Below are positions 39,242 through 62,949 of a stretch of DNA of 64,000 bases, piece after piece; position 1 is the stretch's first letter; the number at the start of each line of letters is the position of its first letter. Both the position numbers and the translations under genes were made by a program. The stretch is taken from contig NZ_CP063458.1 in assembly GCF_015169395.1 (NCBI RefSeq), positions 3,286,001 through 3,350,000 of the forward strand, given 5' to 3'. The notes below the pieces were generated by a model. The model ran no database searches. It was not told the DNA's origin and worked only from the letters and a program-made list of their open reading frames with translations. Origin of the DNA: Humisphaera borealis. Its GTDB lineage: Bacteria; Planctomycetota; Phycisphaerae; Tepidisphaerales; Tepidisphaeraceae.

Positions 39242-39466
39242 TTAGCCTTCTGACGGGCGTTTTTGATAGCGCCAGCCAGAGCGGTTTCTCAGAGGAGAGT
39301 TTTTGCCAGCGTTTTTGCCAGCCCGGCCGCTCGAAAACATTCGCTCGGCAAGCTCACGGAGATCTAAGGGAACATCGAACAACTCCTTGCCGTGCGTCCT
39401 TCCGTCCTTAGTCAGTTTGTAGGCTGCAAAACCCCTACTGTTAAACCGCTCGCGCCGTCTACGCAA
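39242..39466 (-). CDS. Doubtful small basic protein
   Basis: A 74-residue frame, strongly basic, with ELFDVPLDLRELAERMF and a Lys/Arg/Gly-rich tail (GKNAGKNSPLRNRSGWRYQK). The tail is reminiscent of C-terminal ends of some integrases, so it could be a remnant. It overlaps the lipoprotein gene by 55 nt and has no clear ribosome binding site. Confidence 0.25.
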   Translation of the reverse strand: MRRRRERFNSRGFAAYKLTKDGRTHGKELFDVPLDLRELAERMFSSGRAGKNAGKNSPLRNRSGWRYQKRPSEG

Positions 39467-39855
39467 ACCGCTCCAGCAATCTCTAGTGCAGGAGCGAGGA
39501 CGCCGAGTTGTGGCTGAAGAGTAGTAGCTCTCAGGTGCCCGCCTGCCAAGGAACTGGCATCGCCGAGCGACTGAATCCGTGTGGAACGAATGACGCTCAT
39601 TCCATTGCGCTTTTCCAGCACGAGAACTTGCACGATAGCAAGCTCTCGATTGGCAACTCGAATCTTGTCGCCTTCCGTAGTCGCTCGCAGCAAAGGCTGG
39701 AAGTCAGCAGAGTCCCCGGTCTGATTTAAACCTTCTACAATGCCGTAAGCGGAGTGAGTAATTCGTGCCGGATCACTAGGCTCAGGCGGAGCTTTGCTGG
39801 AACATCCAAAGACACCCAGAAGCACCAACACAATAAACACGGCTCGCTGCACCAT
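39412..39855 (-). CDS. Lipoprotein next to an RHS tip (possible immunity protein)
   Basis: A 147-residue protein with a lipoprotein signal: MVQRAVFIVLVLLGVFGCSSK, lipobox LGVFG-C with Cys18. The mature part contains DKIRVANRELAIVQVLVLEKRN and is not of a known family. It follows the RHS-tip gene by only 4 nt on the same strand. In RHS systems the gene directly after the variable tip often encodes immunity, and an envelope lipoprotein could serve that role if the tip acts outside the cytoplasm. Inference from position only. Confidence 0.6.
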   Translation of the reverse strand: MVQRAVFIVLVLLGVFGCSSKAPPEPSDPARITHSAYGIVEGLNQTGDSADFQPLLRATTEGDKIRVANRELAIVQVLVLEKRNGMSVIRSTRIQSLGDASSLAGGHLRATTLQPQLGVLAPALEIAGAVCVDGASGLTVGVLQPTN

Positions 39856-39859
39856 ATGC

Positions 39860-40465
39860 TTACCTCACACGTCGTTGCCGATGCTCAATCCACGACGTTT
39901 GCGTTACTAACTGGACCGCCTTTTCATTCAACTCTACATGGTCAACCCATTCAACCAGTTGCTTGCCGTCATCGCAAGTACACTTCACCCACGCAGACTG
40001 GATATGGCTGGTAACTTCTGTCGCACTCTTGAATACAACTTCTTCCCGAATGACTTGGCGAAAGTCATCCTGATAGTTTGGAAGAGGTGGCGCGTAACCC
40101 TCAGGTCTATCAATCAATCCTGGAAACATGGATAGCGTCACGAACATTCTTGACCCTGCTGGCAATATTCGTATCTCTTCACGGTCTGGCCCCATTTGCA
40201 CGATTTCGCACTTCCCACTCGAAATAATTGAAGGTGGAATATTGGTATATTCTCGCTTGTCATTTCTATTGATCGTTCGAGTGCTGCGGGTTGACACAAT
40301 TGCCGACCAATTCGTCCACTGAGATGGATCATCGCCTTGCAGCCCTATCGGATCAACAAACCGCACCGAGTTGGAATCGACGAACTCATAGAGATTGTTC
40401 GTTCCGCCCTCATAGTCAATTGGATCAGGCTCCAACCACCGACCAAGACTTGCGCGATAAGACAT
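39860..40465 (-). CDS. RHS core end plus variable tip (5'-truncated or orphan)
   Basis: A 201-residue frame that begins MSYRASLGRWLEPDPIDYEG...NLYEFV...VDPIGLQ, the end of the RHS repeat-associated core, followed by a ~165-residue C-terminal tip with no recognised toxin motif (it contains a C-T-C pair and several acidic strands). The long YD-repeat region that should come first is absent; the transglutaminase-like gene ends 3 nt upstream. So it is either an orphan rhs-CT cassette or a remnant left by recombination. Base composition is lower in GC than the neighbours, which suggests transfer. Confidence 0.75.
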   Translation of the reverse strand: MSYRASLGRWLEPDPIDYEGGTNNLYEFVDSNSVRFVDPIGLQGDDPSQWTNWSAIVSTRSTRTINRNDKREYTNIPPSIISSGKCEIVQMGPDREEIRILPAGSRMFVTLSMFPGLIDRPEGYAPPLPNYQDDFRQVIREEVVFKSATEVTSHIQSAWVKCTCDDGKQLVEWVDHVELNEKAVQLVTQTSWIEHRQRRVR

Positions 40466-40468
40466 GGC

Positions 40469-41500
40469 TCATCCTTCCCTTCTTGGAGTTGAAAGACTGA
40501 ACGGATCGTGGAAGAACATCCGAGGCTTCAACGGCACTGCCGTCTGAAAGCACTCAATCGTTGTACAGAGCTTTGTTCGTATCCGAACTGACACGTCGTT
40601 GAGGTAGCCGGGATAGTTGAGCGACTCCGGCACAAGTTCCATCGCCCGCGAGTAGAACTCCTGAGCCATCTCAAGTTCGCCATTGTCTTCGAGACAATGC
40701 CCTCGGCTGCCGTAGAACATCGCCACTTCTTCGTGTGGCTTCAACGGACGCAGGTATTGCCCTGTTTGGAGATGAGTTTCCGTGAGTGGGCGAGGCCAGC
40801 CCTCGTAATGCTCGTCCGAATGCGTGGTCATCCCAGTACCGCTCGCGTCCATGTTGATCCGCTCATTCGCTGTCTCCCAACGGACGAAGGCGTGCCCATG
40901 AGCCAGTGCAAGATGCATCGGGTAGCCGAGCCTTCGCCCGACTGCGACGTAGAGAACCGGCATCGAAGCGCAGGTTCCTACTCGCTTGCCCGCCAGCAGC
41001 CCGTGCAAAAACGAATCGCGGGAGTCTTTGAAGCTCCAGTTCCAAACGGCGCGAGGGTTGAATCTCACGCCGATGTCGCGCTGAAGAACCGTCACCAGAA
41101 CGAGCATCCGGAAGTAGGCTTCGGAGTCCTCGTAGGAAGAAGGCTCGTTGTGGAAACGGCGCATCCGCCTGTCAGTTTCCCAGGCAACCCACCGACTCCA
41201 TTCACCCAGCCGAGCGAGGCATTCGTCGATGTCCAAATCTTCGGCTCCTGGCAGCCGGCTCGCGCAGACGAGGTTTGTAACCGCGATATCGTGCTGGGCA
41301 AGGGATTCAGGAGGAGATGCCCAAAGGGACTCGAAGTTGATACGGCGTGCAGGTAGCGGCTTTGGCAATGGATAGCCGCGCCAAGGTTTGGCGTGAGTCG
41401 ATGGCGGTTGATATCGCCTTACAACGCTCAAATGCCCCTCGGTTCGGGGTTGGAGATGAGAGCCCGATGAGTCGGAGTAGAAACCTACACCTGTTGCCAT
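40469..41500 (-). CDS. Transglutaminase-like cysteine enzyme with tetratricopeptide-like end
   Basis: A 343-residue protein. A papain-like transglutaminase core is visible: Cys in GKRVGTCASMPVLYVAVGRR, His in LALAHGHAFVRWE and Asp in NMDASGTG give the Cys-His-Asp triad of the bacterial transglutaminase-like (SirB1-type) group. The last 100 residues include a TPR-like unit (GHCLEDNGELEMAQEFYSRAMELVP). No signal peptide is evident. It lies directly before the RHS-tip gene, so it may modify or process RHS cargo, or be unrelated cargo. Bacterial members act as proteases or amide-forming enzymes; substrate unknown. Confidence 0.7.
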   Translation of the reverse strand: MATGVGFYSDSSGSHLQPRTEGHLSVVRRYQPPSTHAKPWRGYPLPKPLPARRINFESLWASPPESLAQHDIAVTNLVCASRLPGAEDLDIDECLARLGEWSRWVAWETDRRMRRFHNEPSSYEDSEAYFRMLVLVTVLQRDIGVRFNPRAVWNWSFKDSRDSFLHGLLAGKRVGTCASMPVLYVAVGRRLGYPMHLALAHGHAFVRWETANERINMDASGTGMTTHSDEHYEGWPRPLTETHLQTGQYLRPLKPHEEVAMFYGSRGHCLEDNGELEMAQEFYSRAMELVPESLNYPGYLNDVSVRIRTKLCTTIECFQTAVPLKPRMFFHDPFSLSTPRREG

Positions 41501-48844: not shown

Positions 48845-51800
48845 ATGTCCATTCAATCGATTTCTCGTGCTTTTCGTCGGGGATTACGTTCAAAGTCAGA
48901 CGGCAATCCTCGCGAAACTGTCCGTCGCGCCGTCGCCTCGGCGATCGAACAGTTGGAGGGGCGTGTCCTTTTTACGACGGCGCCCGACGGCTACACCTTG
49001 TGGGATACAATCACCGTTGCGACGCCGCAGGGTTCTTCCGCACCGAGCCCTGTTGAATCGAGCGTCACCCTGACCAATGGCGAGAACTACAAGATCCGTG
49101 TGAGCGGCACCTTCACCTTGAGCAGCGGCTCAAGCCCGCCACGTGAAGCAGACGCAGAATATGGTCAACCCACCGGCGGCTCGTCGTCCTGGAATAACAC
49201 AAGCGGCGGTGGTTTCGATTGGGGTATGAAGTTCGGCATGGTGGGCGGATCTCTGGCGAAGCCAACTTCATGGGGTGAATACAGCTCTGCTCACGAATAC
49301 ACGCTCAACGTCACCGGCAGCAATGCCAAAATGCAGTTTCAATACCAGGATGACGTCTGGACGGACAACGCGGGCGCTTTGACTGTCGAGATTTTCAGGC
49401 CGGACTATAGTTCCGCTACATATGTACCTCCCATCCCCGCCTTTTCCATTCCCGGATGCCTTCCTTGTGAGAAGTGGACTCTTGGCGGCTCAGCCGGTCC
49501 GCTTTGCCCTCAGCCATCTATTGCAACTTCCGCAGGGGGCGTCCGGCTCGGTGACGGAGCTTATACGCACACATCGGTAGACATCTCGTCAGCCGGACTC
49601 GGTGAGGCATTCGGACGCGTAAGGACGGTTTCCAATGCCGTGGGTGCTGGGCAATCGGCCGACGGCAATGGAGTTTCGGATGCTCAGCAGCCGACACTTC
49701 GCCGGAATGAGGCCGGCGACATCGCGGTTGTCGATGCGGCTGGGGCTGCTCGACAGTTCATCCGAAGTGGAAGCACCTACTCACCCCGGTTCTTCTCGCA
49801 GGACAAGCTCGTATATGACGCGGGTGCCCTGAAGTTTTTGTTGACCGATTCGCTGGGCAACATCACCGAGTTCAATGACTTCTCGGAAGGATTCGGAAGC
49901 CGCTCTGGCGCTGTCACTCACTACACTGACGCCGCCGGCAATATCACGACGTTCTTCCCATACGTATACACCCAGATTGCCCGCAGCTTTGAAACCGGCG
50001 GCGACGAGGGTACCGAGCGGTTGCTGTACACCTATTCCGGAAGCCATGTTGAGTCCGTAACGCTCTCGCGCAGCCTCAATGCTGGTACTGAGCAGACGGT
50101 AGGATCGGTAACCTACACTTATTACGGTGACACCGACGCACTCCATGGTTCGAACGGCGATCTCAAGACAGCCGTAATTAAAGATGCAGACGGCAACACC
50201 GTCGAAACCAAGTATTACCGCTGGTGGAAATCCGGTGAGAATGGTGCTGGTCATCTCAAGATGGCCTTCGAGGGGCAGGACTTTGACCGCGCCGATGCGG
50301 CGATCTCCGGGGGTCTCTTGGCCGCGAGCGATATTGACGCAAAGTTGTACGCTTCGAGTTATCTGGAATACGACAGCAGTAGTCGAGTGACCTTTCAGCT
50401 AATTCAAGGATCCGGCTGCTCGTGTGCGGGCTCAAGCGGGCAAGGCCAGTTTTCTTACACTTACTCGGCCGACAGCGGGTTCTCCGACGCTCATAACAAC
50501 TGGAAGCGATATACGACTGTCTCGATGGAGGACGGCACCAAGCAGATTGCCTATACCAATGCTTACGGCCAGACTATCCTGGATATCACGGAAGCGTCCG
50601 ACGGGACAACTCGATGGGCAACCTACTATCGTTATGACAGTTCGGGACGGTTGATTCTCAAGGCAAATCCCTCTGCGGTCGCGCTTCCGACAACGCTTTC
50701 CAGCATGCACGGGTACGCCGACCTGGTGAATTTCTCTTCCTCTACCTACCTGCAATCGAGTTCCGGGCTGATCGAAACCTGGAGCTACTATGGCAGTGAA
50801 ACCACCGGCATTGATGAAGACACCGATGGCGGCGCGGTGGGTTACCTCAACGAAACCCACGTTCAGAGAGGCACCAGCGGCACGCCCGTTCTCCAAGCTA
50901 AGGCTACCTACTTCAAGCGAGCAACGGCCGGGGCCACTACATTTCCCACCGCTTCCACAGCAGTGTACGAGGAAACAGACGGTAGCGGCAGTCGCCGCAC
51001 CGACTACAGCTATACCTTTGAAACCGGTTCCACGCACATCGCGAGGATGGACGTTAAGCGGCCCGAGGTGACGGACCTCCGTAACGGCCCGGGCAGCTCC
51101 ATCCGCGACATCAGCACGAGCGTCTTCGATGCTCTCGGCCGCACAGTCTGGTCCAAGGATGCTCGGGGTGCGATTTCCTACACCGAATACGACGCACTCA
51201 CGGGCGCGGTTGTCAAGTCCATTTCCGACGTCGACTTATCCAAAACCGTCGACTTCGACTCGACTTATCTGCCCGGCGGCTGGTCTACGCCCAGCGGCGG
51301 TGGCTTGCACCTGATCACCACCATGGAGGTCGATGTTTACGGCGATGTCACCTCGGTAACCGATCCCCGCCGCAACGCGGACATTAGCGACGGTAGCAAG
51401 TCGTACATCGTTCGACTCCGTGACGACAAAGAGGTTTGGTCATTCCCCGACTGGCACGCGGTCGGCGGGGGCAATTATGACACGACCGGGCCGGTCACAG
51501 TCACCCGGGAGAATTGGGCTGCGGGCTATACTGAAACTCTCAGTTTCGACCTTGCTCCCGTCGCCAACGCCGTACCGACCGGCAACTACACCATCACCGG
51601 CGCAGACGTTCTGTCGCTGTCACGCAGCAACCTCAGCCTTTCGCGTCAAGTGCTCAGTACGGATATCTATTTTTCGATGAGCGGGCTGACGGGCTACACC
51701 GACAGTCAGCTCCGCGTCGCCAATCTTGGGACCGAAGGCGTCAATTTCCACCGCACGCAATACGATTACAACAAGCGCGGAACGGTCCAGAAGACGACCT

Positions 51801-54800
51801 CGCCGACTGGCACTATCTACCGTACGGTGTTCGACGCCCTGCAGCGCCCCGTCAGCAGTTGGATCGGCCTTGACGACACGCCCACTACCGGAACCTACTG
51901 GTCGCTGACAAATACCGGTGGCACCGATCTGGTACAGGTCAGCGCAAATGAGTACGACGACGGCGGCATCGGCGACTCCAATCTTACGAAAGTGACACAG
52001 TACCCGAGCGGTGCGGGCAGTCCGTCCGACGCGCGTGTCAGCCAAAACTACTTTGATTGGCGCGACCGTCTGGTTGTTTCACGTACCGGCGTGACGAGTT
52101 CAGCCCTCGCGGAGTTCATCAGCTTTAATGAACTTAACAATCTGGGTGAAATCGAAGAGACACTTGTCTATGACGGCAATGAAGGGGGCGGCGTAACGAT
52201 CACTTATACCAGCGGCGTGCCGGACGAGCCCGCAGACCCCAACAGCGGCACAAGCGATCACGAGCTTCTCAGATCCCGGTCGACACAGGAGTATGATCAG
52301 CAGGGTCGCGTCTTCCGTTCCAAGACCTACAGCGTGACTGCGTCAACAGGCGCCATATCTTCGGCCGCACTAACCAGTAACGTCTGGTACGACGCCAATG
52401 GAAACGTCATTGCGTCCGCCCAGCCTGGCGGACTTCAAAGCAAGTCGTCGTTCGATTTCGCTGGTCGCACGACGCTCAATTCCGTTACCGACGGCGGCGG
52501 CGATTCCACCTACGCCGACGCCAGCACGAGAACCGGCGACAAGGTGCTGGAGCAAGCATCGTACGAATACGACGCCAACGGCAACGTCGTCCTCACCACT
52601 GCCAAGCAGCGGTTCCACGACGAAACAGGCACAGGCGATCTGGGTACTGCTACCACCGGCAACAAGGCCCGCGTGAGCTACGTGGCAGGATACTTCGATA
52701 CGCTCGATCGCCAGACCGATGTCGTCGACGTTGGCACGAACGGCGGCGTTGCCTACGGCAACCCGTTATCTGGGCCAGCGGTCGGGAATGCCAACTTCGA
52801 AACGCCCAATCTCGGCGACTACAATTTTCAGTATGAACCGTCGAGCGCTTCGTGGATATTTGGTCCCGGGGCCGGAGTCGCGGGCAACTACAGCGGCTTT
52901 ACTGGTGCCAACCCCGTTGCCCCCCAAGGCGACCAGGTTGGCTTCCTCCAAACCACTGGGACGATGACTCAATCAACGTCCTGGCAGGCGGGAACCTACG
53001 TCATCCAGTTCAAGGCTGCCCAGCGAACCAGCAACTCGCAGAACTTCGAAGTACGGATCGATAGCAACGTCGTCGGCACGTTCACGCCGACCTCCTCTTC
53101 TTACGGGCACTACGCAACAGCCCAGTTCGACGTTACCGCCGGCTCTCATACAATCGAGTTCCGCGGCATCAACACCGTCGGCGGGGACAACACCGCCTTC
53201 GTGGACGATATTCAGGTTGTTCCCGTCATTGCCACTCGCTCGGATACCCGGCTAGTAACCAGTTACACTTACGATGCCGCCGGTCGGCTGCAGGAAGTTT
53301 CAGACCCGAAGAGCATCGAAACACGTTACGCGTACGACCTCGCGGGGCGGACGGTCAGCGTTACAGAAAACTATGTCAATGGGTCGCCAAGCGATACCGA
53401 CGACCGCATTACCCGCAACACTTACGACGGCAACAATAATGTGCTGACCATGACGGCCGACCTGTCCGGTACCGATCAAGTCACGCAGTACGTTTATGGC
53501 ATCACGATCGCTGGTGGCAACATCGTAAACTCTAACGATGTGTTGAAAGAGGTCCGCTATCCCGATGCGACAACCGGTGCCGCCAGCACCTCGGCGTCCG
53601 ATAAGGAGCAGTACACCTACAACGCGCTAGGCGAAACCAAAACGTTAACCGACCAGAACGGCAATGTTCACACGTACACCCGTGATGTCTTGGGCCGACT
53701 TACCAGCGACGAAGTGACCACGCTTGGTACGGGTGTCGACGGCTCGGTTCGCCGGCAGGAAGTACGCTACAACACGCAGGGACTGGCCGATCAGTTTACG
53801 CAACGTGGCATCACACAATCCGTAAGCAGCCTGACGCGTAGCGGTACGACCGCAACCGCGACGATTACCGCGCACGGCTATGCTGTTGGAGATACGGTTG
53901 TAGTCGCCGGCGCCAATCAGTCCCAGTACAACGGCACGTTTGTCATTCTCACCGTTCCCACCGCCAATACCTTCACGTACACGATGGCCAGCGATCCCGG
54001 CGCATCCGGCACCGGCACCATCACCGCTCGCCGCCTCGTCAACCAGGTCCAGCGCGAGTTCAACGGCCTGGGCCAGATGAAGACCGAATACCAGCAGACG
54101 AACGGCGCGGTGAACACTAGCTCAACCCCGAAGGTACAATATGCGTACACGGAGATGGCCTCTTCGGCCAACCACAGCCGGCTTAAGTCGATGACGTACC
54201 CCAACGGCCGCATTGTCCGCTACGAGTACACGTCGGGGCTCGATGCCGACATCAGCCGCGTCAGCTTCCTCGCCGACGACAGTAGCGGCTCGGTGGGGAC
54301 GCACGTCGAGGAATACAGCTACCTCGGTCTCTCAACGATCGTCGAACGCAATCACCCCGAACCCAGTCTCAACCTCACCTACGTCGCTATCAGCGGCACG
54401 GGAGACGCGGGCGACAAGTACGTCGGCCTTGATCGGTTCGGCCGTGTTGCTGACCACCGATGGGTGGATCAGCGGGTGACTCCAGTGACCGGCACTGCCG
54501 ACAGCGGCACCACCACCACTTTGGTCGATTCGCCCCTCAGCAGCAGTAGCGACACCTACATCGGTTACACGCTGACGATCACCGGCGGCACGGGTGCCGG
54601 TCAAACCGCGACCGTGACCGGGTATAACGGCTCGACTAAGACGCTTTCGTTCTCGACGCTGTCCACGGCTCCCAACAGCACATCCACCTACACGCTGACT
54701 TATAATCGCGATGTCGACCGGTTCCGGTACGCCTACGACCGCGACTCCAACCGCACGACACGCGAGTGGGATAGCTATCAGATGCCGTCCACCGTCAACT

Positions 54801-57604
54801 TCGACGAGGCCTACTCCTACGACGACTTCAACCGCCTGACCAAGGCGAACCGGGGCAATGTCGTCAGCGGAACGATCTCGGATGCCAACTCGAACTGGAG
54901 TCAGAGGTGGGACGGCTCATCAGTCAGTCCGCCCAGCCCGCCCGCGGTGAGCGGATATGATGCACTGGGCAACTGGAAAGGGGTCTATACCGACACAGAC
55001 GGAAGCGGCGGCACCGCGGCGACCGTGCAAACGCGGACACACAACAGCCAGAATCAGTTGACGGCGGTCTCCGGGGCCACGACACCGACGTATGACGACG
55101 CTGGCAGCATGACCAAGGACGAGTCTGGCATCCAGTACACTTACGACGCATGGGGCAGGACGATTAAGGTTAAGACTAGCGGCGGGACCGACAAGGTCAT
55201 CTACACCCTTGACCCGTTGGGCCGGCGAGTGGCCCAGGACGTCACCGCGTCCGGCGTAGGCGGTGACACGCAGTATTACTACTCAAGCAACTGGCAGGTG
55301 CTCGAAGAACGTGAGTCCAATGGTTCAGGTTATGTCGCCAAGTTCCAGAACGTCTGGGGCCTAGCGTACATCGACCAACTGGCGATGCGCGACACACTCG
55401 ACGCCAATACTGCTGGTATTCTGGACACCACCTTCAGCAATGATGGCAAATACACCCACTCGCTGCCCGGTACGAACGACTTCGTCCGATTCGTCACCCA
55501 ATCGGACGGAAAGATCGTCGCCGTCGGCGATTCCGGAAATGATCTCATCGTCGCCCGCTTCAACGACGACGGCACCCTGGACAACACCTTCGACGGCCCT
55601 AGCGGCAGCGGCAACGGGATCTTCACCATCAATGTCGGCACCGTCGACCAGGCGCATGGCCTAGCCGTGCAGTCCGACGGCAAGGTCGTCATCGTCGGCT
55701 ACGTCGACGCCGACATCCTCATGATGCGCCTCAATGCCGATGGCACCTACGACACCACGTTCGACGGCCCGGGTGGGTCCGGCAACGGCAAGTTCACCAT
55801 TAATATCAGCGGCACAGACAGCGCGCGGGACGTGGAGATCCAGTCGGATGGCAAGATTGTTATCGCCGGCACAAGCGGAGGCAACTTTCTGGTCGGACGG
55901 TTCAATACCACCGGAACGTGGGACACCGGTTATGACACCGACGGCCGCCAGACGGTGGACTTCGGGGGAACGGATCGTGGGTTCGAAATGTCACTCGACC
56001 ACGACGGCAAGGCGGTGGTGGTCGGCGAGACGACGGCCGGCACCGGCGGCGACATCGCGATCATCCGCATGACGACGGCCGGAGCGTTAGATACGAGCTT
56101 CGACGGCGACGGCAAGAAAACCATCAGCCTGACCGCGGGTCAGGACAGCAGCCGGGCCTTGGCGATCGACCGACAGAACCGGATCGTGCTCGCCGGATCG
56201 GGCGGGACGGACTTCGACGTGTTCCGGTTGAACCCCAACGGCAGCGCCGACAACAGCTTTGACGGAGACGGCCAGGCGACGATCGACATCAGCTCGACGG
56301 ATGTCGCCAATGACCTGGTGATCGACAGCTACGGCCGGATTGTGGTCGCCGGGTCCTCGGGAAGCGGCGCGGACTTCGCGGTCATTCGGCTTAAATCTTC
56401 CGACGGCTCGTTGGACGCCACCTTCGACGGCGACGGGAGGCGAGCGGTGGATTTCGGCAGCGGCAGTGAGAACGCCCAGGGATTGGTCATCGATCCCTTC
56501 GGCCGGATCGTACTGGCCGGGACGAGCAACCAGGACGTGGCGGTGGCGCGACTCAGCGGCGGCGGAGCGCGGCACTACATCGTCCAGGACGCCAACTACA
56601 ACGTGACGGCAGTGGTGGAAGCCAGCGCGACGGTCGCCGACCGGTATCAGTACAGTCCTTATGGAACCTACACGGCTTTGAATGCGGATTTCAGCGCTGA
56701 CTCGAATAATTTCGGGGAGATTTACCAGGCGTTCTACTTCCAAGGCCTGCGGTTCGATGGAAACAGCGGAAACCTCCATGCCCGTAACCGCGATTACCGG
56801 GCGAGCTTGGGGCGGTGGACGCAGAATGACCCGGCGGGATATGTGAACTCATTCAACACCTATGAGCTAAGTAAATCGTCGCCGGTAGTGCTATTGGATC
56901 CGTTCGGCCTCCAGACGCAAGGAGCTCCCACGGGACCCAATCGCGCGCAGGCTATACTTAATTCTCTAGAGCCCGCGCCAGGAGGCGCCGCAGGCGGCCC
57001 GCTGTATCCGCTTGTCGCGGACCGTGGAACATTTACGATTAACTACGGAAGAGATGATTCCGAGACAAAGTCATCCATGCAAATCTTCTTTACGCCCTCG
57101 AAAGACGTCAAAGACGGATGCCTTTGCGATGAGATTAGCTTCGTGCAATACCTTAAAGAGTCGTGGAACTCATTTCCAGGAATGTTCGTTCAAGATACCA
57201 AAACTTGGACCTTAGATGGTGCCGACCCCTACGGCGTTGTTGGCGAGACGAGCTTTCCTTGGATTCGCGACAAGCCCGGATCGATTAATGCGGAAATGCG
57301 AGATGGCCCGGGGCTCGCGTTCGATTTTCTCTGGTCTACGCGGTCCCTGAAGCAAACTTTTAGGACTTCTGCGATCTGCCGTAAGGGAAAGGAAGCGGGA
57401 AAATCTTACGGAACAATTATGTGGTCACATGACTTTACTTGGGGAGGTGACTCCGGAGCCAAAGTCGTGCGGAAAGTGTGGTATGAAGCGGATGGAGTGG
57501 CACAGCCAGACACTAAGTCTGGTAAATTGAACGATTCTGGTGTTTCTTTCAAGGCTCAGAACGTTCGACCAGTAGCAAATATCACTACTAATACAGACCC
57601 GTAA
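48845..57604 (+). CDS. Giant RHS/YD-repeat surface protein with delta-60 and other inserted modules
   Basis: A 2,919-residue protein. The N-terminus holds IEQLEGRVLFT, a planctomycete LE-x-R-x-L export-type motif, then a beta domain. YD/RHS repeats fill most of the rest (such as YDSSGRL, YDAAGRLQEVSDP, YAYDLAGRTVS). Inserted modules: a carbohydrate-binding-like beta sandwich (about 1312-1460); a phage-fibre-like unit (about 1657-1732, GTTATATITAHGYAVGD); a second such unit (about 1879-1957); and delta-60 repeats (about 2191-2570, DTTFDGDGK and QSDGKIVIAG). The RHS core ends SLGRWTQNDPAGYVNSFNTYELSKSSPVVLLDPFGL at residue 2689. A 230-residue tip follows, lower in GC, with several Cys and no known toxin motif. 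Confidence 0.93.
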   Translation: MSIQSISRAFRRGLRSKSDGNPRETVRRAVASAIEQLEGRVLFTTAPDGYTLWDTITVATPQGSSAPSPVESSVTLTNGENYKIRVSGTFTLSSGSSPPREADAEYGQPTGGSSSWNNTSGGGFDWGMKFGMVGGSLAKPTSWGEYSSAHEYTLNVTGSNAKMQFQYQDDVWTDNAGALTVEIFRPDYSSATYVPPIPAFSIPGCLPCEKWTLGGSAGPLCPQPSIATSAGGVRLGDGAYTHTSVDISSAGLGEAFGRVRTVSNAVGAGQSADGNGVSDAQQPTLRRNEAGDIAVVDAAGAARQFIRSGSTYSPRFFSQDKLVYDAGALKFLLTDSLGNITEFNDFSEGFGSRSGAVTHYTDAAGNITTFFPYVYTQIARSFETGGDEGTERLLYTYSGSHVESVTLSRSLNAGTEQTVGSVTYTYYGDTDALHGSNGDLKTAVIKDADGNTVETKYYRWWKSGENGAGHLKMAFEGQDFDRADAAISGGLLAASDIDAKLYASSYLEYDSSSRVTFQLIQGSGCSCAGSSGQGQFSYTYSADSGFSDAHNNWKRYTTVSMEDGTKQIAYTNAYGQTILDITEASDGTTRWATYYRYDSSGRLILKANPSAVALPTTLSSMHGYADLVNFSSSTYLQSSSGLIETWSYYGSETTGIDEDTDGGAVGYLNETHVQRGTSGTPVLQAKATYFKRATAGATTFPTASTAVYEETDGSGSRRTDYSYTFETGSTHIARMDVKRPEVTDLRNGPGSSIRDISTSVFDALGRTVWSKDARGAISYTEYDALTGAVVKSISDVDLSKTVDFDSTYLPGGWSTPSGGGLHLITTMEVDVYGDVTSVTDPRRNADISDGSKSYIVRLRDDKEVWSFPDWHAVGGGNYDTTGPVTVTRENWAAGYTETLSFDLAPVANAVPTGNYTITGADVLSLSRSNLSLSRQVLSTDIYFSMSGLTGYTDSQLRVANLGTEGVNFHRTQYDYNKRGTVQKTTSPTGTIYRTVFDALQRPVSSWIGLDDTPTTGTYWSLTNTGGTDLVQVSANEYDDGGIGDSNLTKVTQYPSGAGSPSDARVSQNYFDWRDRLVVSRTGVTSSALAEFISFNELNNLGEIEETLVYDGNEGGGVTITYTSGVPDEPADPNSGTSDHELLRSRSTQEYDQQGRVFRSKTYSVTASTGAISSAALTSNVWYDANGNVIASAQPGGLQSKSSFDFAGRTTLNSVTDGGGDSTYADASTRTGDKVLEQASYEYDANGNVVLTTAKQRFHDETGTGDLGTATTGNKARVSYVAGYFDTLDRQTDVVDVGTNGGVAYGNPLSGPAVGNANFETPNLGDYNFQYEPSSASWIFGPGAGVAGNYSGFTGANPVAPQGDQVGFLQTTGTMTQSTSWQAGTYVIQFKAAQRTSNSQNFEVRIDSNVVGTFTPTSSSYGHYATAQFDVTAGSHTIEFRGINTVGGDNTAFVDDIQVVPVIATRSDTRLVTSYTYDAAGRLQEVSDPKSIETRYAYDLAGRTVSVTENYVNGSPSDTDDRITRNTYDGNNNVLTMTADLSGTDQVTQYVYGITIAGGNIVNSNDVLKEVRYPDATTGAASTSASDKEQYTYNALGETKTLTDQNGNVHTYTRDVLGRLTSDEVTTLGTGVDGSVRRQEVRYNTQGLADQFTQRGITQSVSSLTRSGTTATATITAHGYAVGDTVVVAGANQSQYNGTFVILTVPTANTFTYTMASDPGASGTGTITARRLVNQVQREFNGLGQMKTEYQQTNGAVNTSSTPKVQYAYTEMASSANHSRLKSMTYPNGRIVRYEYTSGLDADISRVSFLADDSSGSVGTHVEEYSYLGLSTIVERNHPEPSLNLTYVAISGTGDAGDKYVGLDRFGRVADHRWVDQRVTPVTGTADSGTTTTLVDSPLSSSSDTYIGYTLTITGGTGAGQTATVTGYNGSTKTLSFSTLSTAPNSTSTYTLTYNRDVDRFRYAYDRDSNRTTREWDSYQMPSTVNFDEAYSYDDFNRLTKANRGNVVSGTISDANSNWSQRWDGSSVSPPSPPAVSGYDALGNWKGVYTDTDGSGGTAATVQTRTHNSQNQLTAVSGATTPTYDDAGSMTKDESGIQYTYDAWGRTIKVKTSGGTDKVIYTLDPLGRRVAQDVTASGVGGDTQYYYSSNWQVLEERESNGSGYVAKFQNVWGLAYIDQLAMRDTLDANTAGILDTTFSNDGKYTHSLPGTNDFVRFVTQSDGKIVAVGDSGNDLIVARFNDDGTLDNTFDGPSGSGNGIFTINVGTVDQAHGLAVQSDGKVVIVGYVDADILMMRLNADGTYDTTFDGPGGSGNGKFTINISGTDSARDVEIQSDGKIVIAGTSGGNFLVGRFNTTGTWDTGYDTDGRQTVDFGGTDRGFEMSLDHDGKAVVVGETTAGTGGDIAIIRMTTAGALDTSFDGDGKKTISLTAGQDSSRALAIDRQNRIVLAGSGGTDFDVFRLNPNGSADNSFDGDGQATIDISSTDVANDLVIDSYGRIVVAGSSGSGADFAVIRLKSSDGSLDATFDGDGRRAVDFGSGSENAQGLVIDPFGRIVLAGTSNQDVAVARLSGGGARHYIVQDANYNVTAVVEASATVADRYQYSPYGTYTALNADFSADSNNFGEIYQAFYFQGLRFDGNSGNLHARNRDYRASLGRWTQNDPAGYVNSFNTYELSKSSPVVLLDPFGLQTQGAPTGPNRAQAILNSLEPAPGGAAGGPLYPLVADRGTFTINYGRDDSETKSSMQIFFTPSKDVKDGCLCDEISFVQYLKESWNSFPGMFVQDTKTWTLDGADPYGVVGETSFPWIRDKPGSINAEMRDGPGLAFDFLWSTRSLKQTFRTSAICRKGKEAGKSYGTIMWSHDFTWGGDSGAKVVRKVWYEADGVAQPDTKSGKLNDSGVSFKAQNVRPVANITTNTDP

Positions 57605-57628: not shown

Positions 57629-58099
57629 ATGCGGGCGGCACCATGGCGATCCTCTAGAAATGACGCTGTTGTAGCAATTTCGATTGCTTCAGTTTTCACT
57701 TCGTTCGCGCTATTGTATAGCGCAACCGCTTTCCTACTTTGGCCTTTGGACATGTTTCCGTCTTGGGCTCAGTTGGCAACATTTCGTCTAATACGAATTC
57801 TTCAATCACCGGCTCTTGAATTGTCCGTTGTAAATTTTTTCGTTGCGACTATATGTCCATTTCTCTACCGTGCTAGACGGACTCTCTTTTATGCCGGAAT
57901 TGCGCTCTCAATGATGGCGATTTCCATTACCTATTATGCGCATATACAGCGAGTCAATCACTTACCTGTATATCAACGCAATCAAAGCCAAACTCAACAG
58001 GCCTGCTCGCCCTCAACCTTCGCTGGTTGCAACAAACTTGCAGGAGTCCGGGAAGACAAAAACTCCGCCATATGCTTAAGCACAGTTTTTGCCGCGTAA
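57629..58099 (+). CDS. Small multi-pass membrane protein after the RHS tip
   Basis: A 156-residue protein from the ATG at 57629, GGGAG six nucleotides upstream and 25 nt after the RHS stop. Three or four hydrophobic segments: AVVAISIASVFTSFALLYSA, FLLWPLDMF, LSVVNFFVATICPFLY and LFYAGIALSMMAISITYY. GC content is low, like the RHS tip. By position it is a candidate immunity protein for the tip. Its last ~30 residues (from about 58000) run into sequence that abuts transposon remnants, so the true C-terminus may have been altered. Confidence 0.6.
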   Translation: MRAAPWRSSRNDAVVAISIASVFTSFALLYSATAFLLWPLDMFPSWAQLATFRLIRILQSPALELSVVNFFVATICPFLYRARRTLFYAGIALSMMAISITYYAHIQRVNHLPVYQRNQSQTQQACSPSTFAGCNKLAGVREDKNSAICLSTVFAA

Positions 58100-60047: not shown

Positions 60048-61025
60048 ATGCGCAACTGGGATCAATTGCTGGATCGGTACATGGAGCAGTACGCCGCCCG
60101 CGGCATTGCCGTCGAGACGGTGGCGAACGTTCGGCGGGAACTGGAGCGGCTGGGATGCTGGCTGAAGAATCGCCGGCCTCGGCCCAGGATCGAAGACGTG
60201 GGGTCGGATCTGCTGCAGGACTATCTCCAGCGCCGGGGAAGCTGGAAGGCCAAGGCCACGCTCAGCGGCGTGATGAGTACGGTGCGGGGCTTCGGAGAGT
60301 TCCTGGTTCTTCAGGGAGCGTGGGTCTCCAATCCGCTGCGCTGGATGAAGGGACCGAAGTTGCGGATGTACGATCGCATCCCCCGCCGAATCGGGGGCAA
60401 GGCCCAGCAGGACCTCTGGCAGGAGGCGGCGAAGGTCCGCGAGGAGTATCACCGCTATCTGTGGCTGGCGTCGCTGTCTCTGCTGTACGGGACGGGCCTT
60501 CGGCGAGGGGAACTGCACCGATTGAACCTGTCGGACTGGTCCGGCCAGGAAGGCACGCTACGCGTCGACGGCCGTAAGACCCGTCGTGAGCGGAGCGTGG
60601 CGTTGCCGGAACTGACCTGGCGTTGCATCGAGAGCTACCTGCCGCGTCGGCAGAACCACCTGTTGGCGCTGGGGATCCGGGAGGAATCGGCGCTGCTGAT
60701 CGACAAGGACGGCGGACGGCTCAGCGGCGGCGCGATCAGCCGGGGAATCGGTCGGCTGGTGAAGCGGGCGGGAATCGACCATGTCACGCTGCACCAGTTC
60801 CGTCACAGCTGCGCGTCGGACCTGCTGGGCAAGGGGGTCAAGCTGCCGGAGATCCAGCGCCTGCTGGGCCACCAGACCGTCAGCACGACGGTGCGGTATC
60901 TGCACGTCGCCGATCCTGAGCGTCACGCGGCGGTGGCGCGTCACCCCATCAACCAGATGCTGGGCCTCGCAGGCACTGCGCCCGCATCAGCGGCCGTCGC
61001 ACGGACCGAAGGAGGATGCCAATGA
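60048..61025 (+). CDS. RIT recombinase A (first of trio)
   Basis: A 325-residue tyrosine recombinase. The core-binding domain has YAARGIAVETVANVRRELERL. Catalytic Arg in GTGLRRGELHRL; His and Arg in HVTLHQFRHSCASDLL; His in LLGHQTVSTT; Tyr in VRYLHVADPE. The ATG has a weak GGAT element upstream. Its stop overlaps the start of the second recombinase as ATGA. The C-terminus beyond the Tyr is rich in Ala. Probably needs the other two for transposition. Confidence 0.9.
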   Translation: MRNWDQLLDRYMEQYAARGIAVETVANVRRELERLGCWLKNRRPRPRIEDVGSDLLQDYLQRRGSWKAKATLSGVMSTVRGFGEFLVLQGAWVSNPLRWMKGPKLRMYDRIPRRIGGKAQQDLWQEAAKVREEYHRYLWLASLSLLYGTGLRRGELHRLNLSDWSGQEGTLRVDGRKTRRERSVALPELTWRCIESYLPRRQNHLLALGIREESALLIDKDGGRLSGGAISRGIGRLVKRAGIDHVTLHQFRHSCASDLLGKGVKLPEIQRLLGHQTVSTTVRYLHVADPERHAAVARHPINQMLGLAGTAPASAAVARTEGGCQ

Positions 61026-61969
61026 GCAGCAAGAGTGATTCATCTCCCAAGGTGGTGTTCGATCCGGTGATCGACGGGTACCTGGCGTACCTGGGCGATG
61101 TGAGCCGCAAGGCGGCCGGCACGGTGCGGGATGTACGCTGCACGCTGCGGAAGATCATCGGGCAGATGCAGGAGAGCCATCCCGATGTGGCATTGTGGAA
61201 GCTGAAGCTGGAGGACTATATCCAGTGGATCAATCAGCGGCGTGTCGCGGGCCAGAGCGGCGCGAGCCTGTGCAAGTACCTCAGCCATGTGCGTGGCCTG
61301 CTGGAGTACGCCTGGCGCAGCGGCCGCAGTGATCGCAATGTTTTGGACGGCTTCTCGCTTCAGGATGAACTGCGCCGGGTGCCGCCGGGCGCGCTGACGG
61401 AAGACGAGGCGAGACGACTGATCGAGGCCTGCCCGGCGACGACCGTTCCGCAGCGGCGTGACCGGATCATCGTGCTGCTGCTGTACGGATGCGGGCTGCG
61501 CACCGATGAGTTGTGCCGGCTGAACCTGGAGGATGTCAGCCAGGAACGTCAGGAGTTGATCGTCTGGAAGGGCAAGGGGGACCGGCAGCGTGTGGTGCCG
61601 ATCCCGGCGGGCGTGTTCACGGAGCTGCTGGCCTACCTGGGCCAGCGTGGCGGTAAGCGGGGAGCGCTGATCCGGACGGCGGCCAAGTCGAAGCGTACCA
61701 GCGCGAAGGACGTCTGCGAGGCGGTGCGCAAGGCGGCCGAGCGGGCTCATATGGCCACACGCGTCACGCCCAAGACACTGCGTCACAGCTACGCCACGCA
61801 CCTGATGGACCGGGGAGTGGACCTGGCGATCATCTCGTCGTTGATGGGCCATCGCAGTCCGGCCGAGACGGGCGTCTATCTGCACGTGCTGGGGGACAAA
61901 CCGCGTGTCGCCGTAGACCGGCTCTCCTCCGCGGTTCAGCCCGTCCAGGGCAAAGGGGGTGAGCCATGA
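61022..61969 (+). CDS. RIT recombinase B (second of trio)
   Basis: A 315-residue tyrosine recombinase from ATG 61022. N-terminal SAM-like part (KVVFDPVIDGYLAYLGDVSRK and LKLEDYIQWINQRRV). Catalytic Arg in GCGLRTDELCRL; Lys in WKGKGDRQRVVPI; His and Arg in VTPKTLRHSYATHLM; His in LMGHRSPAETG; Tyr in VYLHVLGD. ATGA overlaps on both sides. The long C-terminal Val/Asp tail (RVAVDRLSSAVQPVQ) is poorly conserved. Confidence 0.9.
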   Translation: MSSKSDSSPKVVFDPVIDGYLAYLGDVSRKAAGTVRDVRCTLRKIIGQMQESHPDVALWKLKLEDYIQWINQRRVAGQSGASLCKYLSHVRGLLEYAWRSGRSDRNVLDGFSLQDELRRVPPGALTEDEARRLIEACPATTVPQRRDRIIVLLLYGCGLRTDELCRLNLEDVSQERQELIVWKGKGDRQRVVPIPAGVFTELLAYLGQRGGKRGALIRTAAKSKRTSAKDVCEAVRKAAERAHMATRVTPKTLRHSYATHLMDRGVDLAIISSLMGHRSPAETGVYLHVLGDKPRVAVDRLSSAVQPVQGKGGEP

Positions 61970-62949
61970 ACTCGATCACCTGGGACTACTGGATCTGCCT
62001 GTATACACAGACGCACTGTGTGGCCAGGGGACTTCGTCCGCTCACGATCGCGGCGTACCGCACGGCGCTGCGGCAGTTCGAGTCATACGTGCAGGTCAAG
62101 CTGGAGGGCCGGTCGCCCGATCGCATCACGGCCGCCGATGTTCTGGGGTACCTGGAGCATCTGCGCACCGAACGGAAGAACGGAGACTCGTCGATCAACA
62201 GGACGGCGACGATCCTCAAGAACTTCTACCGGGCCATGGTGGGCATGGGGCATCTGGAGCCGCGTGCCAACCCGATGGCGCAGTTCCCGCGTCTGCGTCC
62301 ACCGACCCGCAAGCTGCCGGTGGTGCTGTCGAGCGAAGAGGTGCAGCGGCTGCTGGAAGCGCCGCCGGGCGACACCGCGATCGGGCTTCGGGATCGGGCG
62401 ATCCTCGCACTGCTTTATGGCACGGGGATCCGCGCCAGCGAGTGCGCGGGCCTCAATGAAGCGGACGTGGACCTGTCCGAACGCGAGATCCGTGTGCGCG
62501 GGAAGGGAGGCCACGAGCGGTCGGTGCCGTTGAACAGCAGCGTGGTGGAGGTGTTGACCTCGTACCGGCAGCAGCGGGGTGAAGTGGAGCCGCGCGACAG
62601 GTTCTTCCAGAGCCGGCGCGGCCAGGGCATGAGCCGGGGCGCGATCTACGAGCGGGTGAAGAAGTACGCCCGGCTGAGCCGGATCCCCAAGGAGATCTCG
62701 CCGCACAAGCTGCGTCATACCTTTGCCACTCATCTGGTCAGACGAGGCGTGGACCTGGTGACGATCCGCGACCTGCTGGGCCATCGGTCGATCACCAGCA
62801 CACAGGTGTATCTGCATGTGACGGCCGAAGACCTTCGCGCGGCGGCGGACCAGCACCCGATCGGCGATCTGGCGGGCCTGCTGAAGAATCTATTGCCACA
62901 GACGAAGCTGCCGTTCCAGCACGCGCCGCCGCGGCGGCAGACCGGCTGA
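61966..62949 (+). CDS. RIT recombinase C (third of trio)
   Basis: A 327-residue tyrosine recombinase, closest of the three to XerC/XerD. Core-binding part: YRTALRQFESYVQVKLEG, then FYRAMVGMGHLEPRANPM. Catalytic Arg in GTGIRASECAGL; Lys in RGKGGHERSVPL; His and Arg in ISPHKLRHTFATHLV; His in LLGHRSITSTQ; Tyr in VYLHVTAED. The ATG overlaps the previous stop as ATGA. A Pro/Arg-rich tail ends the trio. Confidence 0.92.
   Translation: MNSITWDYWICLYTQTHCVARGLRPLTIAAYRTALRQFESYVQVKLEGRSPDRITAADVLGYLEHLRTERKNGDSSINRTATILKNFYRAMVGMGHLEPRANPMAQFPRLRPPTRKLPVVLSSEEVQRLLEAPPGDTAIGLRDRAILALLYGTGIRASECAGLNEADVDLSEREIRVRGKGGHERSVPLNSSVVEVLTSYRQQRGEVEPRDRFFQSRRGQGMSRGAIYERVKKYARLSRIPKEISPHKLRHTFATHLVRRGVDLVTIRDLLGHRSITSTQVYLHVTAEDLRAAADQHPIGDLAGLLKNLLPQTKLPFQHAPPRRQTG

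Follow-up and report, generated by a model that had tools for sequence, protein, structure and literature searches.

Gene order and junctions of the unit

We analysed a 64,000-nucleotide stretch of the Humisphaera borealis genome (NZ_CP063458.1, positions 3,286,001 to 3,350,000; hereafter the window), in which genes for a transglutaminase-like enzyme (TG), a headless Rhs tip and a lipoprotein follow one another in this order on the minus strand, all in the same direction and in reading frames at the coordinates of Table 1. A preliminary description of this DNA, made from its letters alone, had drawn attention to a same-strand trio with gaps of 3 and 4 nucleotides (nt), and the coordinates bear this out. 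The TG and tip genes are joined by TGA-GCC-ATG, with 3 nt between stop and start, so the tip lies in the same frame as TG; the tip stop TAA is 4 nt from the lipoprotein start. Both downstream starts are preceded by Shine-Dalgarno (SD)-like runs, GGGAAGGA for the tip and GTGAGGT for the lipoprotein.

The tip had also been described as lacking the YD-repeat body of an RHS protein, which the family match confirms. Tip residues 3-42 correspond to positions 38-76 of the NCBIfam model TIGR03696 (Rhs_assc_core, 76 positions; 35.5 bits versus a cut-off of 32.5), and with the core starting at residue 3 it is preceded only by the end of the TG gene. No Pfam match was found for the window tip.

Table 1. 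Features of the TG-tip unit and of the large RHS locus in the window (aa, amino acids)
Feature	Position	Strand	Remarks
Transglutaminase-like gene (TG)	40469-41500	-	343 aa; Transglut_core2 and one TPR; no N-terminal membrane anchor in window copy
Cys177 codon, putative catalytic cysteine	40970-40972	-	invariant in alignments A1 and A4
His203 codon	40892-40894	-	invariant in alignments A1 and A4
Asn216 codon, proposed third active-site residue	40853-40855	-	invariant in alignments A1 and A4; precedent in the C/H/N triad of HvyA
SD-like GGGAAGGA	40472-40479	-	within TG gene end, upstream of tip start; from sequence
Headless Rhs tip	39860-40465	-	201 aa; no signal peptide in window copy
C-terminal half of Rhs-associated core (tip residues 3-42), with Asp14 and Asp38	40340-40459	-	TIGR03696 match
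Variable C-terminal region (tip residues 43-201)	39863-40339	-	no known family
Lipoprotein, proposed immunity gene	39412-39855	-	147 aa; FlgI-like segment
2919-aa RHS protein	48845-57604	+	opposite strand to TG-tip unit; DUF5122 propeller repeats
156-aa membrane protein	57629-58099	+	behind large RHS gene; immunity-like by position

Recurrence of the TG-tip pair

Homologues were chosen by TG alone, independent of their neighbours. In 397 genomes of the window's class, the TG search yielded 130 genomes with a match and 41 with a match of at least 84 bits (counted from the search output). The loci comprised 58 that were fetched first and 80 named ones found with an alignment of 13 TG sequences, 34 of the 80 being removed as copies. 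After 5 TGs below 160 bits to the TG profile were dropped, 99 TGs of at least 160 bits were retained, and 6 of these were cut by a contig end, leaving 93 evaluable TGs. A tip counted as in range if a headless Rhs core occurred at -20 to +650 nt from the TG stop, on the strand of TG. The first locus set served to build the core profile, and the second set was held out.

A headless tip was found directly downstream of 86/93 evaluable TGs (46/50 in the first set and 40/43 in the held-out set). Spacing between the two genes is narrow, with 82/86 gaps within -60 to +70 nt and 19/86 at exactly -4 nt. By comparison, 0/25 more distant TG paralogues had a core, neither in range nor anywhere in the 4.5-10.5 kilobases (kb) fetched (Fisher test, p = 1.3 × 10−19). 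That the tight spacing exceeds chance had been claimed beforehand, and the comparison of 86/93 with 0/25 rejects chance adjacency. General RHS abundance was rejected as well, the 25 paralogues lying in related genomes without any core in the fetched stretch. An intact RHS gene in relatives, with TG as a later insertion, had been named as the case that would overturn the preliminary description; it was not seen, the tip behind TG being bodiless in all 86 pairs, and no locus with TG inserted into an RHS gene was noticed among the mapped loci. We regard the TG-tip unit as well established.

The proposed search for the gene set in other genomes thus showed the pair to be recurrent among planctomycetes and related bacteria. 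Most named carriers belong to Planctomycetota (Phycisphaerae, Planctomycetia, Gemmataceae, Isosphaera), and others to Verrucomicrobiota and Lentisphaerota; single carrier bins under the labels Nitrospiraceae, Nealsonbacteria and Prochloron could be binning errors. A phylum-wide sample searched at E 1 × 10−20 held the module in 6/392 genomes, and it is therefore uncommon outside the window's class. Five records were returned by a plasmid search, all with short TG-domain matches only.

The enzyme: family, active site and fold

TG matches Pfam Transglut_core2 (PF13369) with 28.6 bits versus a curated cut-off of 23.5, and carries one TPR. Cys177, His203 and Asn216 are invariant across the TG family, in 37 rows of alignment A1 and 63 rows of alignment A4. 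An AlphaFold2 (AF2) model of the window TG was good (predicted local distance difference test (pLDDT) 85.7, predicted template modelling score 0.81), and its top structural match was menin (Z 15.2 over 231 residues, root-mean-square deviation 4.5 Å, 16% identity), the next unrelated protein having a Z of 8.8. Foldseek also ranked menin first, but only at E 0.01. Menin (PF05053) was absent from the Pfam matches of TG up to E 1, and the sequence search instead yielded TPR proteins. Going by the predicted structure, bacteria may have in TG a counterpart of the menin fold, one whose active-site residues are intact. Menin is described in the relevant part of PMC10318531 as solely eukaryotic, and human menin as probably catalytically inactive; the same 2023 source calls the roles of bacterial Transglut_core2 proteins unknown.

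The tip: a conserved core before exchangeable C-termini

Within the core, Asp38 is kept in 86/86 tip rows with a letter at this position and Asp14 in 79/83, both being present in 78/87. Read by eye rather than aligned, the pair would match the Rhs autoprotease dyad, by position D1324 and D1346 of RhsA, mutation of which blocks toxin release according to the portion of PMC8765631 at hand. Of the motif PxxxxDPxGL, the window tip has both Asp residues and DPxGL, with Ser33 in place of the first Pro.

Behind the core the tips diverge. In alignment A3 the core columns are conserved, and the overall mean column identity is 6%; tip length has a median of 293 aa and ranges from 35 (a cut tip) to 505. 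At E ≤0.01, the C-termini of 87 tips match TGL (3), phospholipase A2 (3), Tle1-like lipase (2), PT-HINT (2), SLT (2), DUF6765 (2), Ntox44 (1), Aspzincin (1) and others, and the majority, including that of the window, match nothing. A constant part is thus followed by exchangeable C-terminal domains, the hallmark of polymorphic toxins, as seen both in A3 and in repeats that include the tip start (described below). A whole-tip scan of genome contigs found no relatives of the window tip's C-terminus. Across 298 genomes, two weak matches to this C-terminus were obtained, neither in an Rhs-like frame on inspection, and the complete Rhs gene with the same tip that had been suggested as a search target was found in none of the 298. 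The AF2 model of the tip alone was unusable (pLDDT 35).

Matched location of enzyme and tip

The start of many TGs is positively charged and includes a membrane helix, an anchor present in most relatives, and such TGs would therefore lie outside the cytoplasm. Many tips likewise carry a signal peptide joined directly to the core (about 60/86 of relatives' tips), and relatives' tips have their own start and SD-like site. With a hydropathy cut-off applied to 86 pairs, both features were present in 55, the TG anchor only in 2, the tip signal peptide only in 5, and neither in 24. Anchor and signal peptide therefore agree in 79/86 raw cases (Fisher test, p = 2.6 × 10−14), and the window pair has neither. 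We inspected the discordant cases: L097 has a false helix, L182 and L095 are barely under the cut-off, L075 has its helix in another frame, L091 and L170 are cut TGs, and L163 is unexplained.

A tree was then calculated for 83 TGs, from which L075, L091 and L170 were dropped on inspection and rows shorter than 170 residues were dropped as well; L163 was counted as anchored on account of its tip's signal peptide. The tree shows approximately 7 state changes (bootstrap 7-8), and the starred branches force only 2. The agreement of anchor and signal peptide is striking, though not yet a phylogenetically strong test because the independent contrasts are few.

Displaced repeats near TG-tip pairs

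The repeat search covered every TG retained at the 160-bit threshold (99), and in 14/99 loci part of the stretch from TG to the tip start is repeated nearby. In eight of these (L055, L060, L063, L085, L091, L150, L154 and L157) the repeat runs from the 3' part of TG through its stop into the tip start with 73-94% identity; in L050, L115, L117 and L130 the tip start alone is repeated, and L156 and L168 have their repeat within TG. At several loci the repeated TG 3' end and tip start carry new C-termini, and the maps of L060, L063 and L157 show extra tips interspersed with small lipoprotein or membrane genes. This is a pattern of displaced cassettes in which the TG 3' end is inside the constant stretch. 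The preliminary description had cast TG as an accessory modifying enzyme; this needs revising, because it is TG that stays constant in the unit, and copies of its 3' end accompany displaced tip starts.

At a separate locus, L192 (G226:C1:1282000-1301900), tandem RHS 3' ends, several of them separated by lipoprotein-like genes, lie approximately 3 kb from a TG-tip pair.

The lipoprotein and the genes behind other tips

The 147-aa lipoprotein has a lipobox-like VFGC, identified by eye. Its match to Pfam FlgI is weak (3.7 × 10−5, 23.2 bits, under the cut-off of 25.3) and limited to positions 37-115; residues 35-144 have 37% identity to FlgI-like flagellar frames of relatives. Given the sub-cut-off score, the partial match and the length of 147 aa, identification as a FlgI P-ring protein was rejected. 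It resembles a shortened FlgI P-ring protein, and no other match was found in the window's genome at E 0.001.

Among relatives, a small gene lies behind 71/82 tips, within -46 to +160 nt. By a crude classification, in which the open-reading-frame background is mostly spurious, these 71 genes comprised 25 lipoproteins, 14 proteins with one N-terminal helix, 5 other membrane proteins and 27 soluble proteins. The location of the following gene's product did not differ significantly with tip type (p 0.19). The window lipoprotein is a probable immunity protein. For the orphan effector-immunity cassette suggested earlier, the toxin-like C-termini and the lipoprotein or membrane genes behind relatives' tips speak for the effector-immunity part, and the own starts, SD-like sites and signal peptides speak against a silent orphan.

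Surroundings of the unit and the large RHS gene

The three-gene unit has a guanine-cytosine content of 54.2%, versus approximately 63% in both flanks. The surrounding stretch encodes an integrase, a TrwC relaxase and an ArdC protein, which makes carriage on a mobile element likely and, together with the unit's own base composition, supports the earlier suggestion of element cargo; the ends of the element were not located. No attachment sites, sought as repeats of at least 14 nt of the tRNA-Ser region, were found within the window, and promoters and terminators were predicted no more often than in shuffled sequence. Separately, three consecutive frames of 317-327 aa at 60048-62949 resemble a tyrosine recombinase trio, as judged by eye.

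The window's 2919-aa RHS protein shares 51% identity with the tip, limited to 41 aa of core (YRASLGRW...DPFGLQ). A TG domain was sought inside this large RHS gene and none was found, and the DNA of the TG-tip stretch had a single 18-nt match to the rest of the window (E 0.31). Elsewhere in the same genome (L190, 3953000-3966000), a second short headless core frame of 234 aa precedes the end of an RHS gene and has no TG nearby.

Proposed mechanism and alternatives

From the recurrent pair, the agreement of anchor and signal peptide, the invariant Cys-His-Asn, the conserved Asp pair and the displaced copies, we propose, with confidence that is evenly balanced, a polymorphic effector module in which TG would act on a presumably toxic, cocoon-less Rhs tip and the lipoprotein would probably confer immunity. 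The three genes would form one translationally coupled unit. Its constant gene would encode a cysteine enzyme of the Transglut_core2 family, menin-like in fold, and its second gene a cocoon-less Rhs effector that consists of the terminal portion of the Rhs core, Asp pair included, and an exchangeable C-terminal domain; the third gene, small and variable and a lipoprotein in the window, would most likely serve for immunity. TG would most probably act on the co-produced tip within a shared compartment, outside the cytoplasm for an anchored TG with a signal-peptide tip and in the cytoplasm for the window copy. It may cut the tip at or near the core, as McjB cuts its substrate, or transamidate it there to the envelope, and would thereby do the release or anchoring job of the cocoon in full-length Rhs proteins. 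New tips could be acquired by recombination across the TG 3' end, the tip start and the core. More tentatively, such modules may constitute a separate class of Rhs effector that has shed its cocoon, with release or anchoring at the Asp-pair core taken over by a menin-fold cysteine enzyme of the same operon and the effector following the enzyme between cytoplasm and envelope.

Several observations weigh against this proposal. The approximately 160-residue C-terminus of the window tip matches no known toxin. For seven evaluable TGs (L057, L065, L070, L083, L155, L167 and L186) the range contains no tip; in L083, a broken TG that appears again as L173, and in L186 the core lies just past the range, at +744 and +749. 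Of three contrasts on well-supported branches of the TG tree, 2 are concordant, 0 opposed and 1 uninformative. The soluble class makes up 27/71 of the following genes, and no Imm family was found for following genes among the 25 of 86 Pfam families listed, in a scan of the 65 following genes that reach 80 aa and of the window lipoprotein. Behind tips without a signal peptide, only 3/22 following genes encode lipoproteins, so the pairing in the window is unusual. Finally, any contact between TG and tip is inferred, as are toxicity and immunity.

The best-surviving alternative, which we nonetheless consider rather unlikely, is that the unit is a displaced orphan toxin-immunity cassette of the Salmonella rhs type, a silent store of tips for a full Rhs gene in which TG hitch-hikes. 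Orphan rhs genes are described in PMC3967940 and PMC7043789, displaced tip copies occur in relatives, and the tip and the tail of the 2919-aa RHS gene in the window start at one and the same core junction (YRASLGRW). However, Salmonella orphan and main genes share 522 bp at 95% in the sections of PMC7043789 and PMC3967940 available, versus one 18-nt match within the window, and the long DNA identity to a main rhs gene that marks a Salmonella-type orphan is thus missing from the window. As presented in the same sections, the Salmonella orphan lacks start and export signals, whereas the present tips have starts, SD-like sites and mostly signal peptides. Hitch-hiking also fits poorly with a TG that precedes the tip in 86/93 loci and keeps its active-site residues invariant.

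TG could instead be a toxin itself, similar to Tox-TGase, in an operon of two effectors and one or more immunity genes. Transglutaminase-fold toxins are known (PMC3482391, as far as its text was available), and three relatives' tips end in a TGL transglutaminase domain. Nevertheless, TG is constant while tips vary, it is membrane-anchored in most relatives, unlike a released toxin, and TG and tip have no second immunity gene between them; we judge this reading improbable. Similarly low is our confidence that TG is a modifying antidote keeping the tip harmless in the producer, with the downstream gene as a further antidote or as cargo. Nearly all pairs have TG and tip in one compartment, but a constant antidote is hard to reconcile with very different toxin domains, and a separate small variable gene already stands behind 71/82 tips. 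A non-antagonistic unit, with secreted enzyme-bearing surface or digestive proteins processed by TG, would suit the lytic transglycosylase, phospholipase and metallopeptidase C-termini, which are also fit for digesting environmental polymers, but is made very doubtful by the PT-HINT, Ntox44 and Tle1-like domains typical of toxins and by displaced repeats and variable tips typical of polymorphic toxins.

In Rhs toxins as known, a large cocoon both cages the toxin and lets it go, and a widespread polymorphic effector module that keeps no more than the release motif and adds an enzyme would show that the cage is dispensable. If the proposal is true, the bacterial Transglut_core2 family gains a testable function, and the TG enzymes would be catalytically competent bacterial relatives of menin. 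The module also offers a set of toxin-like domains from little-studied bacteria.

Comparison with known systems

No description of the TG-tip pair was found in the literature searched, most subscription journals lying outside its coverage. The tip resembles Rhs polymorphic toxins such as RhsA of P. protegens, as portrayed in part of PMC8765631, in having an Rhs-associated core with an Asp pair, an exchangeable C-terminus and a small gene behind. Unlike RhsA-type proteins, it has no YD-repeat cocoon and no PAAR or other known delivery domain, is partnered with the TG enzyme, and has Ser for the first Pro of PxxxxDPxGL. Orphan rhs-CT/rhsI of Salmonella is similar, on the evidence of portions of PMC3967940 and PMC7043789, in combining core and C-terminus without a delivery part, an adjacent immunity gene and displaced downstream copies. 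The window unit differs in its own ATG and SD-like site and in a conserved TG gene whose 3' end lies in the repeated stretch, and most relatives add a signal peptide.

McjB acts on the leader peptide of a lasso peptide. As a works-like comparison only, this Transglut_core3 protein, which processes the microcin J25 precursor McjA (PMC10318531, in part), is also a transglutaminase-fold enzyme processing an antibacterial precursor; it belongs to another Pfam family and its substrate is not an Rhs core. HvyA of Caulobacter provides a precedent for an exported bacterial transglutaminase-like cysteine protease with a functional C/H/N triad, but it controls capsulation and, in the portion of PMC4241560 available, is not linked to Rhs. 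A related combination of elements occurs in RHS toxins whose N-terminal transglutaminase domain is inactive (Zhang et al. 2012, PMC3482391); these likewise join a transglutaminase fold to an RHS toxin, near a signal peptide or transmembrane helix. The domains covered in the accessible part of that work are fused to full RHS repeats and have lost triad residues, whereas TG is a separate protein with invariant Cys/His/Asn and no repeats; a separate enzyme with intact active-site residues and a bodiless tip set the present pair apart from those fused, inactive domains.

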